Positions 54,559 through 64,000 of a stretch of 64,000 bases of DNA are shown here, in pieces. Source of the DNA: Bacillota bacterium. Lineage in GTDB: Bacteria > Bacillota > Clostridia > Ch29. A program made the translations under genes and the position numbers. The stretch covers positions 62,001 through 126,000 of the forward strand of contig JABVCK010000020.1 of NCBI GenBank assembly GCA_013540605.1, read 5' to 3'. Positions within the stretch are counted from its first letter, which is position 1, and each line of letters starts with the position of its first letter. The notes beneath the pieces are model-generated. The model searched no databases and had not been told where the DNA came from. It was given only the letters and a program-made list of their open reading frames with translations.

Positions 54559-54648
54559 TACTAAATAATTATTCGACCTATATATAAAAATTCCTGCTTG
54601 TTTTATAAACTTTTAAAAAAATATTTTTACTGAGAAATTATATTTATA

Positions 54649-54720
54649 TAGATTACGATAAAGGTATCACAAGGTAAAAATATCCATACCACAAACCATG
54701 CATTTTATTGTATTATGTTA
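54649..54720. repeat. Degenerate direct repeat, copy B
   Basis: Partner of 53030-53100. It lies just upstream of the IS630/IS1634 remnants. Together the copies bracket the VOC and gntR genes. Confidence 0.7.
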
Positions 54721-54754
54721 ACTATAAACATTTTATAGGATGGTGGTTAACACA

Positions 54755-54950
54755 ATGGCAAGGATTGATAAAATATTCGAAGCTGATAACAGTAACCCTG
54801 AAATCCAAGCTGTAAAGGAGGCTATTAAGAAAACCAAGGATAAACGGATTACCAGCGTTATATGGTTATACTTTATCACCTTAAAGGATATATCAATGTA
54901 GATATATCCAAGATGGTTGACCTATGCCAGCATACGATAGGTATATTAAA
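54755..54950 (+). pseudogene. IS630-type transposase N-terminal remnant
   Basis: Begins MARIDKIFEADNSNPEIQAV and breaks at about 54850, where one T seems lost: restoring it gives KRIYQRYMVILYHLKGYIN and then DISKMVDLCQHTIG, the helix-turn-helix start of IS630-like transposases. It stops where the IS1634-type reading begins (54924-54950), so the two fragments are joined. The rest of the IS630 gene is absent. Confidence 0.7.
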
Positions 54951-56310
54951 GTAACTAAAGCCGGTAAATATGAATACGTGAATATCGTACGTTCCTTCAG
55001 GGAAAATGGCAAGGTTAAACATGAGGTTCTCTTTAATCTGGGAAGGAGAGATGAAATCGAAAATAATCCTGCCTTCCAGCGTATGGCGCAGAGGTTGGCG
55101 GAATTATCAGGATTGAAGGACATCCGAAAAGATATGGATGAGTGTTCGGAAGCCATTATCCGGAACTGGGGATACGTAGTATACAAACGAATCTGGAAAG
55201 ACCTTGACATGTGCGTTTGAAAGTGCAGAACAGGACGAACTGAGGGATTTTGGTTACAGCAAGGATAACAAATATAATGAAGTACAGGTAGTAATGGGAA
55301 TGCTGATAGACTGTGACGGGTGTCCCATCGGGTATGAATTATACAAAGGCAGTACATTTGACGGAAAGACCATGGCAGGAGCGTTGGAGAATCTGAAAAG
55401 ACGGTTTGGGATTCGTCATGTGGTGATTGTTGCAGACAGGGGGCTGAACAGCAAACTGAACCTAAAACTTATACGTGACGCGGGATGCGGATATATTGTG
55501 GCTAGTAGAATCAAGAATATGAGCCGGAAGGTACAGCAGCAGGTGCTTGACAGTGCAGGGTATTCCGATATAGCAGGGCCATGCAGGCAGGATGGTAAGC
55601 CGGAACAACTGCGTTATAAAATATTGGAATATGTAAACAAGATAAAAGATGAGCAAGGAGAAGAACATGAACTTAGGGAACATCTGATAGTAACATATTC
55701 AGAGAAGCGGGCCCAAAAAGACCGTGCAGACCGGGAGCGACTTATTGAAAAAGCTAAAAAGCTGGTTGAAGACCCAGGTAAAATCAAAGCATCAATAAAA
55801 CGGGGCGGACGTAAGTATTTGAAGAAAGAAAGCGAAGAAGTCAGCGAACACTGGATGATTGATGAAGATAAAATCAGGCAGGATGAAAAGTTTGACGGTT
55901 ACTACGGTATTCAAACCAGCGAGTTAGAGATGAAGCCCAATGATATACTGGCAGCATATCACACACTTTGGAAGATCGAAGAGTCATTCCGGATAATGAA
56001 GAGTACGCTGGAGGTGAGGCCAATTTTTCACTGGACAGAAAAACGCATAAAGGGGCATTTTGTAATATGCTTCCTGGCGTTTCTGCTTGAAAGGAAGCTT
56101 GAGCAACAACTTCATAAAAGTGGTATTGAAGATGCTTCGCCAGAAAAGATAAGAGAAGCCATAAACCGGATGGAGTTTGCAGAAGTAGATTTGAAAGGTC
56201 AAAGCTTCTATATCAAAACCAAGGGGACTGAATTAAGCAACAAAATATTGAAGGCTATGCATATACAGCCTCCTAAAAATTTCCTTCCTGTTTCAGAATT
56301 TCGTCCTTGA
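54924..56310 (+). pseudogene. IS1634-type transposase with internal deletion and frameshift
   Basis: Two pieces of one transposase. The first (54924-55220) reads RYIKVTKAGKYEYVNIVRSF to VVYKRIWKDLD. The second, in another frame, resumes at CAFESAEQDELRDFGYSK (about 55210) and continues to the end, including GMLIDCDGCPIGYELYKG, VIVADRGLNSKLNLKL, WKIEESFRIMKSTLEVRP and the terminal region. Compared with the related copy at 45354-46184, about 110 residues between KRIWK and TFAFES, with the first catalytic Asp region, are missing. Not active. A candidate right end resembling the IS1634-type terminus lies at 56381-56397. Confidence 0.87.
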
Positions 56311-56754: not shown

Positions 56755-57645
56755 TTACCACGAGGTGGTCTGGCAATGCCAGTTTTTATGCCATTCATCT
56801 TCATTCACAATTGCACTCCAAATCCCGCCGAGAAACGTATTCAACAAGCCTGTAACCTTACGAAATTCAATATCCGGCAGTTTTGTGCGTCTGAGAAATT
56901 GCCGCCACTTGACCAGCATGGCGTCATTTCCCGAGAAACTGATAAGCTCATCAAAGCTGTTGCGGTCATAATCAGTACCGCGATTCTGCAGCGTCTGCAT
57001 GATGGCTTCCTGCAGCTTGCGGCCGTCAAAGTCAAAGGTGCGGGCGATAAAGTAAAGGTCATAATAATCTTTCATCCGGCTGGTCAGTTCCATCCGCTGC
57101 AACATGGCATCGAACTTCTCGGCCACGGTACTTTCCAGAGAATATGTAATAACTTCGGGCGGAGTAAACGTATCGAGCTGGGTAGGTATAAGCCGTTTTT
57201 CCGCTTTAGGAACAATCACATCTCCGATGCCAAAATCGACATTGAAGGGTGTTTTTGTATTCTTTATTTTGCCTATCAACTGAAAACTGATGCCCTTGTA
57301 TTTTCTTTGAGGCGTGATTTCCTCGAAGCTACTCATGTCAAACGTGATGAAGTCATTGCCGCTTGGGGTGTTAATGATTTCCGAAACAATCCGCCGTGCA
57401 TCTTCCACGCTGCCGGGGATCTGTCGCAAAAGGAAATCGATGTCAATAGTAGCACGGCTTTCAAAGCCGGTCAGAACAAAAAGAAAAAGTCCGCCTTTTA
57501 ATACCAGATTGTCTGCATATTTTGAAAGCGAAAGCCTCCGCAAAAACTCTTCCTGACAGAACAACCGCAGATGAACCTGAAAGGACATCCCGGAGCTTTG
57601 CGCTTTGTTTTTCAGTTTCGCAATCACTGAAGCACCCATATCCAT
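56755..57645 (-). CDS. abiEii: AbiEii/AbiGii-family nucleotidyltransferase toxin
   Basis: 296 residues from the ATG at 57645 that overlaps the antitoxin stop (TAATG); an in-frame GTG lies three codons earlier. Nucleotidyltransferase core: VLKGGLFLFV followed by ATIDIDFLLR with the Asp pair, then a later FNVDFGIGD and VAEKFDAMLQRMEL with SRMKDYYDLYFIA, the typical AbiEii pattern. These toxins transfer nucleotides to tRNA acceptor stems and stop growth, giving phage abortive infection or element stability. All motifs look intact. The pair sits on the mobilizable accessory segment. Confidence 0.92.
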   Translation of the reverse strand: MDMGASVIAKLKNKAQSSGMSFQVHLRLFCQEEFLRRLSLSKYADNLVLKGGLFLFVLTGFESRATIDIDFLLRQIPGSVEDARRIVSEIINTPSGNDFITFDMSSFEEITPQRKYKGISFQLIGKIKNTKTPFNVDFGIGDVIVPKAEKRLIPTQLDTFTPPEVITYSLESTVAEKFDAMLQRMELTSRMKDYYDLYFIARTFDFDGRKLQEAIMQTLQNRGTDYDRNSFDELISFSGNDAMLVKWRQFLRRTKLPDIEFRKVTGLLNTFLGGIWSAIVNEDEWHKNWHCQTTSW

Positions 57646-58241
57646 TACAGCCACACTCCAATCACATCGTGTACTCGTTTTATCGCCTTTCGGCGTTTCG
57701 CATAGGTCAGCAGGTTTCTGATATTTTTCTTCGGGTCGGCAATGTATGCCTGAATCGCTTTATTAAATGTTTCTTTGTCCATGTCGGATTCATATTTGAG
57801 GCACTCGCAGATGAGCCTGTCGCGGTCAAAAATGTTCATGGTGCATCCCTCAATTTCGATGGTTGTCACACCGTAAGAGAGCCGTTCCGGAGCTACAAAA
57901 AACGGGTTTATATGAGGATAATCAATTTCGAACCGGGAAGGAGAAGCATTTTTGCTTATGATAATATCCCATTGCATAGGCGTTCTGTCGCTGTATCCAT
58001 AATAAAAAAGAGCGGTATTAAGCCAAAGCACTCCGTCAGGAAAGAGACGGGATACAATGGAAGCCTCACCTGTATCATCATCAGATAGAAAACGATAGTA
58101 TCCGGTTTTAATTTTCTCAATCGTGCCGTCTGAAATCAGGCGCTTAATGCCACGAGAGTCGATTTTGAGCGCAGAAAGCTGCGAGGTTTTGAGAACCCCG
58201 TTGTTGCTTGCAAAAGCCTTTTCAAGTTCTTTTATGTCCAT
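57645..58241 (-). CDS. abiEi: AbiEi-family antitoxin/regulator
   Basis: 198 residues from the ATG at 58241. N-terminal winged helix (NNGVLKTSQLSALKIDSRGI, LISDGTIEKIKTGYYRF) and a C-terminal domain typical of AbiEi (PDGVLWLNTALFYYG, RDRLICECLKYESDMD). In type IV systems the antitoxin represses the promoter and counters the toxin without contacting it. The promoter region upstream has GTCGGTAT (58281) and TACCGACA (58334) as an inverted pair, a likely binding site. Confidence 0.9.
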   Translation of the reverse strand: MDIKELEKAFASNNGVLKTSQLSALKIDSRGIKRLISDGTIEKIKTGYYRFLSDDDTGEASIVSRLFPDGVLWLNTALFYYGYSDRTPMQWDIIISKNASPSRFEIDYPHINPFFVAPERLSYGVTTIEIEGCTMNIFDRDRLICECLKYESDMDKETFNKAIQAYIADPKKNIRNLLTYAKRRKAIKRVHDVIGVWL

Positions 58242-58280
58242 CAAAATCACCACTCGATTGCCGACAGAATAATAAAAACG

Positions 58281-58936: not shown

Positions 58937-59912
58937 ATGCCATATGCGATTTTGCGTTTTGAAAAGAGAAGAGGAGGACCAGCGTCCGCTCTGGAGAAGC
59001 ACCACGAAAGAAAAAAGCAGCAGTATGCCAGCAATCCCGACATTGATAAAGAGCGCTCGGAGATGAATTTCCATCTTGTTAAACCGAGAGCGAAGTATTA
59101 CAAGCGAAATACAGACCCGCATCGAAAAAGCACAGAAAGAAAATCCGAAGTGCAAGGTACGAAAGGACAGCGTCAAGTTCATCGACACCATCATTACCGC
59201 CAGCCCTGAGTTTTTTGACCGCCGCTCAGCAGAGGAAACGGAAAAGTATTTTAAACATGCGCTGGAGTTTTTACAGGAAGAAGTCGGCGCGGACAATATC
59301 TTTTCGGCAGTCGTTCATATGGACGAGCGGAATCCGCACATGCATCTGTGCTTTGTGCCGCTGACAAAAGATAAGCGCCTGTCCGCGAAGGATGTAATCG
59401 GAGACCGCAACAAGCTCATTGAGTGGCAGGACAAGTTTCATGAACACATGTCGAAGGAGTTTTCCGAGCTGGAGCGCGGAGAATCAGCCGCAATCACCAA
59501 ACGCAAACACGTTCCGACCTGGCTGTTCAAACAAGCCAACCGCCTGACAGAGCAGATGGAACAGATGAAGCGGGAGATTGAGGGCATCGGAGCTTTTAAC
59601 GCACAGAAAAAGAAGGAGAGCCTTCTGGATATGTTCTGCAAATGGTACCCTCGCATCAATGCTTTTGAAAACCAGCTAAAGCCTTACGCCCAGCAGCTTG
59701 AGATCCTGCAGCATAACGAGGAGGCGCTGGAAGCGAAGATGAAGCAAGCCCAGCGTAATGCACAGATCGTGCAGAATGAAAACAGCTCGCTAATTTATCA
59801 GCTGCGAGAGTATCAGGAGTTTGTGGAGTCCATTCCGGAAGAGCTGAGAAAGGAGCTGAACGAGCGATATGAGCAGAAGCAAGCCGGACAGACGCAGGAT
59901 TTGCAACTATAA
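58937..59912 (+). pseudogene. mobV: MobV-family relaxase with a frameshift
   Basis: The relaxase is read in two frames. The first part (58937-59100) has YAILRFEKRRGGPASALEKHHERK in pieces and ends near YYKR; the second frame takes over at EIQTRIEKAQ and continues through HMDERNPHMHLCFVPLT, the MobV metal-binding motif, to a coiled-coil end at 59912. Two bases seem lost near 59105 in AAGCGAAATA, best explained by loss of one CG from CGCG. Intact MobV nicks oriT and stays attached to the strand. As it stands the gene cannot make a full relaxase, although a sequencing error is possible. Confidence 0.85.
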
Positions 59913-61036: not shown

Positions 61037-62464
61037 TTATTCTGTATAATGCGATAAAAGCTTTGAAATAAGTCTATTGTCAGAGCGTTTGTCTACAAAG
61101 ACATTATCACCAATCAGGCTCTTGAATTCAGCGAGTGAATTTGTATCAAGTTGGCAAAACAACTCATTCCAACGGTCGGTATTACCATTTTCAATATTTT
61201 CATTTCTATAAATGATATATTTTTCTGGCATCCAGATAAGTTTATTGAATTCATCGATGTTTTCTCCGAAAGCTTTTTTAAAAAAGGCATGCTTGGGGCC
61301 TACAACACCATGGGTAGCATTTAAGATGCATTGAATACCCCTAAGCTGCTTTCTCACCCATTTTTTACCTAAGAACTTTCGCCCTTTAGCTTCCTCACCA
61401 AAAATCGGAGAAAATCTCATTGGGAATGACCATATCCTTGTACGATATCCGGCGTTTTCAAATTGTGTATTTAGCAGGACGTTGATTTCAAGCCTTTTAT
61501 ATAAATCATTCGGTTCATCTTCAAAATTGAACAAGATATAGTTTGATACATCTTTAATATTATTTTCGGCTGCCAGCCACATACACCGTGTGTATATCTT
61601 TACAAACTCATCGTCAGCATGGTCAAAGGCTATTCGAAGCGGCTTTACCGCAACTCGACTTAATAGTTCCATTTTTTCAGGATGCTCATACAGTAACCGT
61701 GCATCTAATCCCTGATTAAAGTCTACATATCGCTTTTTAGTCCGCTCTTTGCCATCTTTGATATATTTATAATCATTGTTATTAACGCCAAATCCGCAAT
61801 CAATAATATCTTGAACAATTTGCTCCAAGTCTGGTGAAGCTAATATGTTATTATCCATAATCATTAGATCGCGCCTATCTCCAAATTGCTTGATAACATT
61901 CTCGATATTTGGTTTAATGTCCACATATTTTTTAAAATTTGGCTCGATTTTGGGTACAGCACAAAATTCACATTTTCTTATACAACCACGGGTCGAATGT
62001 ATAAAAAAAGCATCACTCACAGGATAGTTGTAAGTGAGATAATCATTTTTAGTGGTGTCTATGATAGAATAGTCTGGAACCATGTTATCAACGATATGTT
62101 CATTTTCATCCAGCATATTTGGTTTATTCAAAAGTCCCCTTAAAATAGTAATTTCTTCGAGACCCTTTTGAGCAAGAATTTCTTCTGCCATAATTGTGGC
62201 CATCGGACCACCAACAAAAATATGCTTGGTGTTATCAACACTTTTTAAATAGTATTTGATCGTTTTAATCGTTGTGTTCCAATAAAACGTAAAAAGTGAT
62301 GTTATATAAATCCTGTCCCATTTTTCCTGTCGCAAGGACAGGTTTGTGCCTTTACAAAAAACAACTTCATCTCCAAGCATTTTATGATAAGCACTGATCT
62401 TCATTAACCCGAGCGGTGGGTATTTATTTCTATATGACGGTTCGATTAAGAGTATTCTTCTCAT
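61037..62464 (-). CDS. Cobalamin-type radical SAM protein
   Basis: 475 residues behind GAGGGAC. The N-terminal 140 residues look like a B12-binding domain (ILLIEPSYRNKYPPLGLMKI; HIFVGGPMATIMAEEIL). The radical SAM cluster motif is STRGCIRKCEFCAVPKIEP near 165 with the CxxxCxxC cysteines. A Lys/Arg-rich middle (KERTKKRYVDF) and a long C-terminal domain follow. It carries out a radical reaction with SAM, maybe methylation or modification of nucleic acid or peptide. It is the last gene of a helicase-ParB-radical SAM operon on accessory DNA, 19 bases behind the ParB gene. Confidence 0.88.
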   Translation of the reverse strand: MRRILLIEPSYRNKYPPLGLMKISAYHKMLGDEVVFCKGTNLSLRQEKWDRIYITSLFTFYWNTTIKTIKYYLKSVDNTKHIFVGGPMATIMAEEILAQKGLEEITILRGLLNKPNMLDENEHIVDNMVPDYSIIDTTKNDYLTYNYPVSDAFFIHSTRGCIRKCEFCAVPKIEPNFKKYVDIKPNIENVIKQFGDRRDLMIMDNNILASPDLEQIVQDIIDCGFGVNNNDYKYIKDGKERTKKRYVDFNQGLDARLLYEHPEKMELLSRVAVKPLRIAFDHADDEFVKIYTRCMWLAAENNIKDVSNYILFNFEDEPNDLYKRLEINVLLNTQFENAGYRTRIWSFPMRFSPIFGEEAKGRKFLGKKWVRKQLRGIQCILNATHGVVGPKHAFFKKAFGENIDEFNKLIWMPEKYIIYRNENIENGNTDRWNELFCQLDTNSLAEFKSLIGDNVFVDKRSDNRLISKLLSHYTE

Positions 62465-62482
62465 TTATGTATAGTCCCTCGC

Positions 62483-63475
62483 TTATTCGCCGATATCTTT
62501 AAGTAATTTCTCAACGGCTTGCTTGATTTTCTTTAGCTCAAAGGCAATATCTTTTGTCGTTGCAGCTTCTGTTTTAATTTTCTTTTGAAAATCATCATCA
62601 GTGAAAGTTTCTCTGAACTTTTTTACTTTCGTATATGCTCCACCGGTTTTTCCAGTGGCCTCAAAACGCTCGTGTGCATCATAAATTGAAGTTTTACCTT
62701 CAATTATTTCGTTCATAAGTCTCTTGGCTGTTTTATCAGTTCCTTTTGCAACAGTGCCAAGAAGGTCTCTAACGTCAACTGCTTGTTTTATTTCACCAGT
62801 TTTTACCTGAGAAACAAAGGTTTCATCAATTTTGGGATTTGTATCTCGATATTTTTTAATCCCTCTATTTTTTAAGTATTCATCGTAATAACTCCACCTA
62901 TCTGGACGCAAATCATCATTATCACGCATAAAGGTATAAACTCTTAAATACTGCTCTACTGTTCCAGTAGATAGGCCAACACTTTTTGCAAGAATGTCGT
63001 TATCAAGTTTAGAGGAATTCTTTTTTCGAAATACGTATGCGGCTTGTTCAAACTTACTCCAGTCTTTTCTGCCAATCAGATGATACTGTCCTAACAGAGT
63101 AAAAATATCATCATCAGTTATGTCCTCGGATAAAACAGAGCATTTAACGTCTTTCCATTTTGATGGGTCCTTTCTTGCAAGAAGACGATATGCTGCCAAA
63201 CGGCTGTTACCTTCCAGTACAATATAATTGCCTTTTCGATTAAGGACAATTAGCGGGTCAATAATTCCGCCATTCTGTTCGATGGAAACACGTAATTGTT
63301 TTACGTGATCCATAGTTGTTAAGATATCCTCAATTCCTTCTTGTGAAGGCACATTTCCATCCGAATTGATAATGGAATAAATTCTTGGGTTCTCTTCATA
63401 AAAAAGCAATTCGCTTTGATTGAGTATTCTTTCTTCGGCATCGAATTCCTTTTTACCAATGGTAATCTTACTCAT
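62483..63475 (-). CDS. ParB/Spo0J-like nuclease-domain protein
   Basis: 330 residues. ParB N-terminal domain: VKQLRVSIEQNGGIIDPLIV with the later EGNSRLAAYRLL, the signature of ParB/Srx-type nucleotidases and nucleases; then a helix-turn-helix stretch (LDNDILAKSVGLSTGTVEQYLRV) and a helical end. ParB-like proteins on mobile DNA act as CTPases, nucleases or DNA-binding adaptors. The start overlaps the helicase stop by 8 bases, so they are coupled. A role in plasmid partition is less likely as no ParA is seen. Confidence 0.88.
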   Translation of the reverse strand: MSKITIGKKEFDAEERILNQSELLFYEENPRIYSIINSDGNVPSQEGIEDILTTMDHVKQLRVSIEQNGGIIDPLIVLNRKGNYIVLEGNSRLAAYRLLARKDPSKWKDVKCSVLSEDITDDDIFTLLGQYHLIGRKDWSKFEQAAYVFRKKNSSKLDNDILAKSVGLSTGTVEQYLRVYTFMRDNDDLRPDRWSYYDEYLKNRGIKKYRDTNPKIDETFVSQVKTGEIKQAVDVRDLLGTVAKGTDKTAKRLMNEIIEGKTSIYDAHERFEATGKTGGAYTKVKKFRETFTDDDFQKKIKTEAATTKDIAFELKKIKQAVEKLLKDIGE

Positions 63476-64000
63476 AGCGTAATTCCTCCTGACAAGCTTG
63501 AATATTTAATATTTTTTTTACTATATCGCCAAAGCTGTAATCTACTTTAAATTTATATTCATCTAGCGATATGTCCCCTTGGACAAGTGATGCGGCATTC
63601 TGTTTTGCTTCCAGTAGTACATCAATCCATTCGTCTATTGTTCCACGTGCGATAATGTTATGAACATAGCAAGTCTTTGTTTGAGATATTCGATGGATTC
63701 TATCCTGCGCCTGCAAGTAATCATCAAGACTAAATCCACGGTCATAAAAAATAACGTGGTTTGCTTCTGTTAGTGTAAGGCCTTCTTTCGCAGATGCTGG
63801 AGTTGCAAAGAGAACCTTGTGCTCCTGTAACCTAAACTTTTCTACGGAGCGGTTCCTTTCTGTTATTTTCATACCGCCATGTATTTTTACCGACCCGAAT
63901 TGAGAATATAGCTTATTAAAATAATCAACATTTTCAATGAAGCTTGTCCAGACAATACATTTTTCATCTTTTGCTAAAATACCTTTAATCAACTCATCCA
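63468..64000 (-). CDS. SNF2/DEAD-type helicase, C-terminal part (cut by the window edge)
   Basis: The open frame enters from the right edge and ends at 63468; 176 or so codons are visible. They form the second RecA-like domain of an SNF2 helicase: CIVWTSFIENVDYF, IHGGMKITERNRSVEKF, LFATPASAKEGLTLTEANHVIFYDRGFS and the arginine-finger motif QAQDRIHRISQTKTC, plus IIARGTIDEWIDVLLEAK. It uses ATP to move on or remodel DNA. The N-terminal domain lies outside. It is the first visible gene of the operon with parB-like and radical SAM genes. Confidence 0.9.
   Translation of the reverse strand, partial: DELIKGILAKDEKCIVWTSFIENVDYFNKLYSQFGSVKIHGGMKITERNRSVEKFRLQEHKVLFATPASAKEGLTLTEANHVIFYDRGFSLDDYLQAQDRIHRISQTKTCYVHNIIARGTIDEWIDVLLEAKQNAASLVQGDISLDEYKFKVDYSFGDIVKKILNIQACQEELRYE

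Follow-up and report, generated by a model that had tools for sequence, protein, structure and literature searches.

In DndCDEA-PbeABCD, a modification part adjoins an exchangeable restriction part, and in experiments PbeABCD acted only together with a mark on the DNA, the phosphorothioation by DndCDEA (PMC6459918). Homologues of PbeAC without a modification component have also been reported, 165 in number (PMC6459918), and several CxC/PbeABCD systems have no phosphorothioate genes, of which some might mediate entirely different modifications (PMC10853773). DISARM combines drmA and drmB with a methylase. The GHKL ATPases known as paraMORCs, with which the domain HATPase_c_3 is linked, belong to restriction-modification loci (PMC2292703, PMC8011034); neither paper mentions a radical SAM enzyme. 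A phage radical SAM locus of another make-up has been speculated to modify DNA (PMC11437467). We found no literature that joins the radical SAM family described here to restriction modules; many subscription papers lie outside the coverage of that search, so an earlier mention is possible.

Here we compare with these systems an operon at the end of a 64,000-nucleotide stretch of DNA (the window, contig C24:62001-126000). Its radical SAM protein (rSAM), predicted to be of the cobalamin type, recurs in at least 18 phyla beside differing anti-virus gene sets. The pairing of one such enzyme with varied sets suggests an undescribed way to mark a cell's own DNA and attack DNA that is unmarked. Like DndCDEA-PbeABCD, the locus appears to join a modification part to an exchangeable restriction part.

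The operon and its surroundings

The window closes with three leftward genes, for rSAM, a ParB-like protein (ParB2) and the end of an SNF2 translocase, at the places given in the initial annotation. The 8-base overlap it described between the SNF2 and ParB2 genes is there; the gap between ParB2 and rSAM is 18 bases rather than the 19 it gave. The contig ends at position 128520, 2,520 bases beyond the window, and this extension reveals a five-gene operon in the order ParB1-Nuc-SNF2-ParB2-rSAM, the added genes overlapping or abutting (Table 1). Methylase, nuclease or 7-deazaguanine genes had been suspected upstream. What lies there is a gene for a predicted PD-(D/E)xK nuclease and, beyond it, another for a ParB-like protein, with no methylase and no 7-deazaguanine genes. 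All five genes look complete, because in L024, a relative 82-83% identical that extends further upstream, ParB1 is preceded by a divergent tyrosine-integrase-like gene. The contig ends with an inverted repeat, examined as a clue to the break, of which the window holds no copy.

Table 1. Positions of the operon genes and their neighbours, in window coordinates or their equivalents beyond the window end
Feature	Position	Strand	Basis
rSAM (radical SAM protein, predicted B12 type, 475 aa)	61037..62464	-	ORF list and Pfam
ParB2 (ParB-like protein, 330 aa)	62483..63475	-	weak profile matches and conservation
SNF2 translocase, C-terminal 176 aa inside window	63468..64000	-	Helicase_C
SNF2, full gene, 504 aa	to window-equivalent 64982 (contig position C24:126982)	-	contig extension
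Small nuclease (predicted PD-(D/E)xK), 135 aa	window-equivalent 64961-65368, outside window		motif
ParB1 (second ParB-like protein, 343 aa)	window-equivalent 65371-66402, outside window		contig extension
AbiEi	57645-58253		
AbiEii	56755-57654		
Mob_Pre relaxase	59076-59912	+	Pfam

Relative to L023, which is 89% identical, dN/dS is about 0.05 for ParB1 and rSAM, 0.1 for SNF2 and ParB2 and 0.3 for the nuclease, so all five genes are under purifying selection. As the order of the block is also kept across phyla, the arrangement is not due to chance.

The neighbours named in the initial annotation, AbiE and a MobV relaxase, are both present, the latter apparently in altered form. MobV is probably frameshifted: the Pfam match of the tabulated ORF begins only at profile position 53, and the N-terminal part apparently reads in another frame, in an ORF at 58937-59209 on the plus strand. 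As L024 has the operon and AbiE but no Mob segment, that segment is probably an insertion between the two. A contig labelled as a Desulfobacterales MAG (L022, JASEIZ010000014.1) is 99.8-100% identical to the accessory block of the window and to contig C29 of the window's own genome, the two meeting close to an IS element at positions 54641-56310 of the window. Horizontal transfer is disfavoured because that genome contains both parts; L022 more probably belongs to the same species and was misbinned, and its differing junction may stem from IS-mediated rearrangement or from assembly.

The proteins and their nearest relatives

rSAM matches the Radical_SAM profile (PF04055, 4e-7) and, at 28.4 bits, the B12-binding profile PF02310, under the curated cut-off of 32.1. 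Its CxxxCxxC cysteines, C161, C165 and C168, are invariant among 57 aligned relatives; this motif and a confident AF2 model (pLDDT 95.8) that matches OxsB and MiaB place it in the radical SAM superfamily. The nearest folds among solved structures are MiaB, RimO and the cobalamin-dependent OxsB; AerR and a photocobilin, both of them cobalamin binders, match weakly. With the MiaB/RimO methylthiotransferases and OxsB the predicted fold has in common an N-terminal Rossmann-type domain and a radical SAM barrel, but the sequences are only 11-13% identical. The similarity to MiaB-like folds, TM about 0.46-0.5, is at the level of the superfamily only, and would equally fit a tRNA or a protein as the substrate. 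The N-terminal domain has a single cysteine, too few for the three-cysteine auxiliary cluster of MiaB/RimO, and fits better as a B12-binding-like domain. The genome contains three cobalamin riboswitches.

The full SNF2 protein matches SNF2-rel_dom (1.2e-28) and Helicase_C (4.4e-20; 3.5e-20 for the part inside the window). Its Walker A (G50-K51), Walker B (D144-E145) and motif VI (Q424..R428) residues are invariant in 33 relatives, and the closest PDB structure by sequence is 1z63, a Snf2/Rad54-family helicase. It is weakly PbeA-like. Its ATPase domain is of one superfamily with those of Zorya ZorD (PADLOC, 9.8e-48 over the ATPase part) and DpdE, but the N-terminal half of both is missing from the 504-aa protein, and no other Zorya or Dpd gene occurs in the operon. 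We rejected assignment of the locus to PbeABCD, DISARM, Zorya, Dpd or BREX through SNF2, as the ATPase domain alone matches. The operon fits none of the system models searched.

We read the small 135-aa protein as a PD-(D/E)xK nuclease on the grounds of its motif, P50-D51...E64-A-K66, in which P50, D51 and E64 are invariant and K66, like Q79, nearly so. The AF2 model is a confident alpha-beta fold (pLDDT 93) with helices and strands in the order expected for such nucleases. Foldseek returned no significant match for it (best E about 0.01), the weak ones including XPF, Hjc and Mus81. ParB_N (PF02195) gives 8.3e-5 for ParB1 and 0.07 for ParB2, both under the cut-off. The profile matches that point to a ParB identity for ParB2 are weak, and include NCBIfam parB_part at 1.3e-5, again under the cut-off, and phrog ParB-like families. 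The residues N29-P30-R31 and E88-G89-N90-x-R92 of ParB2 are invariant; both proteins keep the NPR and GNxR motifs and are related to one another, with 34% identity over a local stretch.

One radical SAM family beside interchangeable modules

By tblastn, full-length rSAM relatives were found on alphaproteobacterial plasmids, where the annotation places the same quartet (ParB1, the predicted nuclease, SNF2 and ParB2) beside DGQHR, rSAM and GHKL ATPase genes. The DGQHR partners match DndB (PF14072). A scan of 84,980 species genomes gave 513 rSAM relatives, of which the best 80 were taken with flanks of up to 10 kb. In the annotated set the quartet and rSAM occur together in 36 loci from at least 11 named phyla, most commonly as ParB1-Nuc-SNF2-ParB2-(DGQHR)-rSAM-(GHKL1), and the median distance from rSAM to the annotated upstream gene on the same strand is 4 bases. 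The genes are thus co-conserved across genomes, and the ordinary conjugative-element operon that the initial annotation had named as counter-evidence is not what the extension holds. All seven plasmid records with ParB1, among 72,556 searched, also have rSAM. A quartet without rSAM was found neither in these plasmids nor in 398 genomes, in which three weak nuclease matches proved to be lone genes. In one quartet locus from Brocadia, DGQHR and rSAM are separated by a gene of the metallo-beta-lactamase fold that weakly resembles Apyc1 (L035:8716-9990).

rSAM is often followed by a GHKL (paraMORC-like) ATPase in other lineages, and the GHKL1 that accompanies most long rSAMs contains HATPase_c_3, the paraMORC-linked domain. 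In contrast, the short rSAM clade of the window has no GHKL1, and in the window's lineage DGQHR is missing too. A search of the window's genome with one distant query found no GHKL1 elsewhere.

At least one of seven interchangeable modules accompanies rSAM in 68 of the 80 best loci: the quartet (31), PbeABCD (12), DGQHR-HEPN (9), NurA-HerA-GHKL (7), DrmA-DrmB with helicases (6), PIN-GHKL (5) and PD-Lambda-5_A (4). Most of the 12 loci without a recognised module are on short or cut contigs. The modules were named from Pfam and PADLOC matches, the latter comprising PbeA (1.6e-223), PbeC (7.4e-158), PbeD (1.9e-5), DrmA (4e-165), DrmB (1.2e-56) and PD-Lambda-5_A (3.9e-60); we infer the names NurA and HerA from weak HerA matches and from how genes next to the same rSAM are annotated in a phage. 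Because the 80 loci had been picked by similarity, we also searched 398 genomes sampled evenly from the window's phylum. rSAM occurs in eight, every time in a module operon: four with Pbe, three with NurA-HerA and one, the window's own, with the quartet.

At least 23 changes of module label are needed on the rSAM tree, against a possible minimum of 6 and a mean of 42.9 after shuffling; none of 200 shuffles was as low. Labels are therefore clustered and yet have been exchanged many times, as between the near neighbours L078 (quartet) and L069 (DGQHR-HEPN), which makes rSAM the constant partner.

PbeA, PbeC and PbeD homologues occur in the operons of the relatives L037, L044 and L200, and in some relatives rSAM stands directly behind genuine ones. 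The window differs from these in its ParB1-nuclease-SNF2-ParB2 partners, and its genome has no PbeC at E<=1e-60. PbeC is present in 11 of the 398 genomes; four of these operons have rSAM, four have DndC or a PP-loop relative together with a gene resembling cysteine desulfurase, and three have neither. rSAM and phosphorothioate genes are never together, an exclusion that is suggestive only, given 11 operons and a probability of about 0.11 that no overlap would arise by chance. In the position held by the modification genes, rSAM would most simply be the modification enzyme. The three Pbe-like operons with neither (L245, L246 and L250, all from the window's phylum) have no recognisable modification gene nearby, so modules of the Pbe type may not always need one. 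DndC (TIGR03183) was not found in the window's genome, nor above the cut-off in 11 rSAM genomes, and the locus does not class as Dnd.

Relatives such as L066 and L097 resemble DISARM in having DrmA and DrmB homologues adjoining rSAM; the operon of the window, in contrast, matches neither. NERD helicase and rSAM genes come after DrmB in these relatives. The six DrmA-DrmB operons (L066, L097, L061, L092, L064 and L026) contain UvrD/NERD helicases and rSAM, and no methylase domain in the members scanned; they would represent a DISARM-like arrangement with rSAM in the place of the methyltransferase. Neither PF01555 (N6/N4) nor PF00145 (C5) methylases were found near rSAM in eight sampled rSAM genomes or anywhere on contig C24, the matches in the window's genome sitting on other contigs. 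The operon is accordingly without the methyltransferase beside a restriction gene that defines classical restriction-modification. We also considered a hidden methylase: a search for DPPY motifs flagged three ORFs, all outside the conserved modules, and Pfam found none in the members scanned.

Proposed working and alternatives

The initial annotation had proposed a DNA-modification or defence module. That reading gains support, by association, from the co-conserved genes and from the place of rSAM in the modification slot of PbeABCD and DrmAB operons. Our best explanation, which we consider fairly likely, is an anti-invader system similar to restriction-modification, with rSAM marking self DNA and the module acting on unmarked DNA. 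The putatively cobalamin-type rSAM would mark the cell's own DNA chemically, the ParB-like proteins would be DNA-bound sensors or clamps, SNF2 would move along duplex DNA as a translocase, and cleavage of DNA without the mark would fall to the small PD-(D/E)xK protein. The sequences themselves show the genes and their order, the intact motifs, the co-conservation, the exchange of modules and, in the genomes examined, the lack of methylase or DndC neighbours; the division of labour is inferred. In other lineages the same rSAM would drive PbeABCD, NurA-HerA, DrmA-DrmB, PIN-GHKL, DGQHR-HEPN or PD-Lambda-5_A. The association with known defence modules makes it quite probable that the system is antiviral, and on balance DNA is the likely substrate of rSAM. 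In its proposed working the operon resembles restriction-modification, and it belongs to none of the known systems tested.

The exchange of modules would also be expected if rSAM were a shared effector or signal enzyme, making an antiviral nucleotide or small molecule in the manner of viperin, with the swapped modules as sensors or co-effectors. Antiviral radical SAM effectors do exist among the prokaryotic viperins (PMC12926258). However, the partners of rSAM are mostly DNA motors and nucleases, would-be effectors themselves; in PbeABCD operons rSAM takes the place held elsewhere by phosphorothioate genes; and PADLOC scans gave no match for the rSAM family, viperin included. We regard this alternative as unlikely. 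Equally unlikely, to our mind, is a guard system, in which rSAM would modify RNA such as tRNA, or a partner protein, and the modules would sense the loss of that modification after phage attack. The best structural matches, MiaB and RimO, modify tRNA and a ribosomal protein, and the HEPN and PIN partners could suit RNA-directed effectors. Most partners are nevertheless directed at DNA (SNF2, HerA-NurA, PbeABCD, DrmAB and PD-(D/E)xK), and distant phage relatives of rSAM adjoin DNA methyltransferases in two annotated phages. Housekeeping of a plasmid or mobile element, by ParB-based partition or conjugation with a metabolic rSAM, is very improbable: the operon does adjoin a Mob relaxase and AbiE, has relatives on conjugative plasmids and is flanked by the tyrosine-integrase-like gene in L024, but it has no ParA partner, the block is also chromosomal and found in many phyla, the L024 operon lies beside AbiE without the Mob segment, and rSAM swaps partners among nuclease and helicase modules.

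If self DNA is indeed what rSAM marks, bacterial immunity would gain a DNA mark made by radical chemistry and a widespread defence family. The rSAM family is a concrete candidate for the open modification of some Dnd-like (CxC/PbeABCD) systems. A broader proposal, which we put forward tentatively and at slightly less than even chances, is that a single, widespread rSAM family marks self DNA by new chemistry. It would act for at least seven restriction modules that are otherwise unrelated, and would provide the modification step that many PbeABCD-type and DISARM-like operons lack. Such a mark would be a fourth principle of self-marking beside methylation, phosphorothioation and 7-deazaguanine. 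Cultured carriers include Jannaschia seohaensis, Novosphingobium aromaticivorans (pNL1 strain) and Rhizobium leguminosarum WSM1325.

Adjoining a complete quartet-rSAM locus, L040:14361-15845 encodes a second, distant rSAM (18% identity to that of the window), together with a gene for an 802-aa partner. SNF2 genes adjoin or lie near rSAM on the viral contigs L145, L152 and L173. In Bacteroides phage BI-TP1 (L182) and Dulem virus 39 (L211), rSAM relatives of about 300 aa are located between or beside DNA methyltransferase genes, where a use in DNA modification or anti-restriction is possible.
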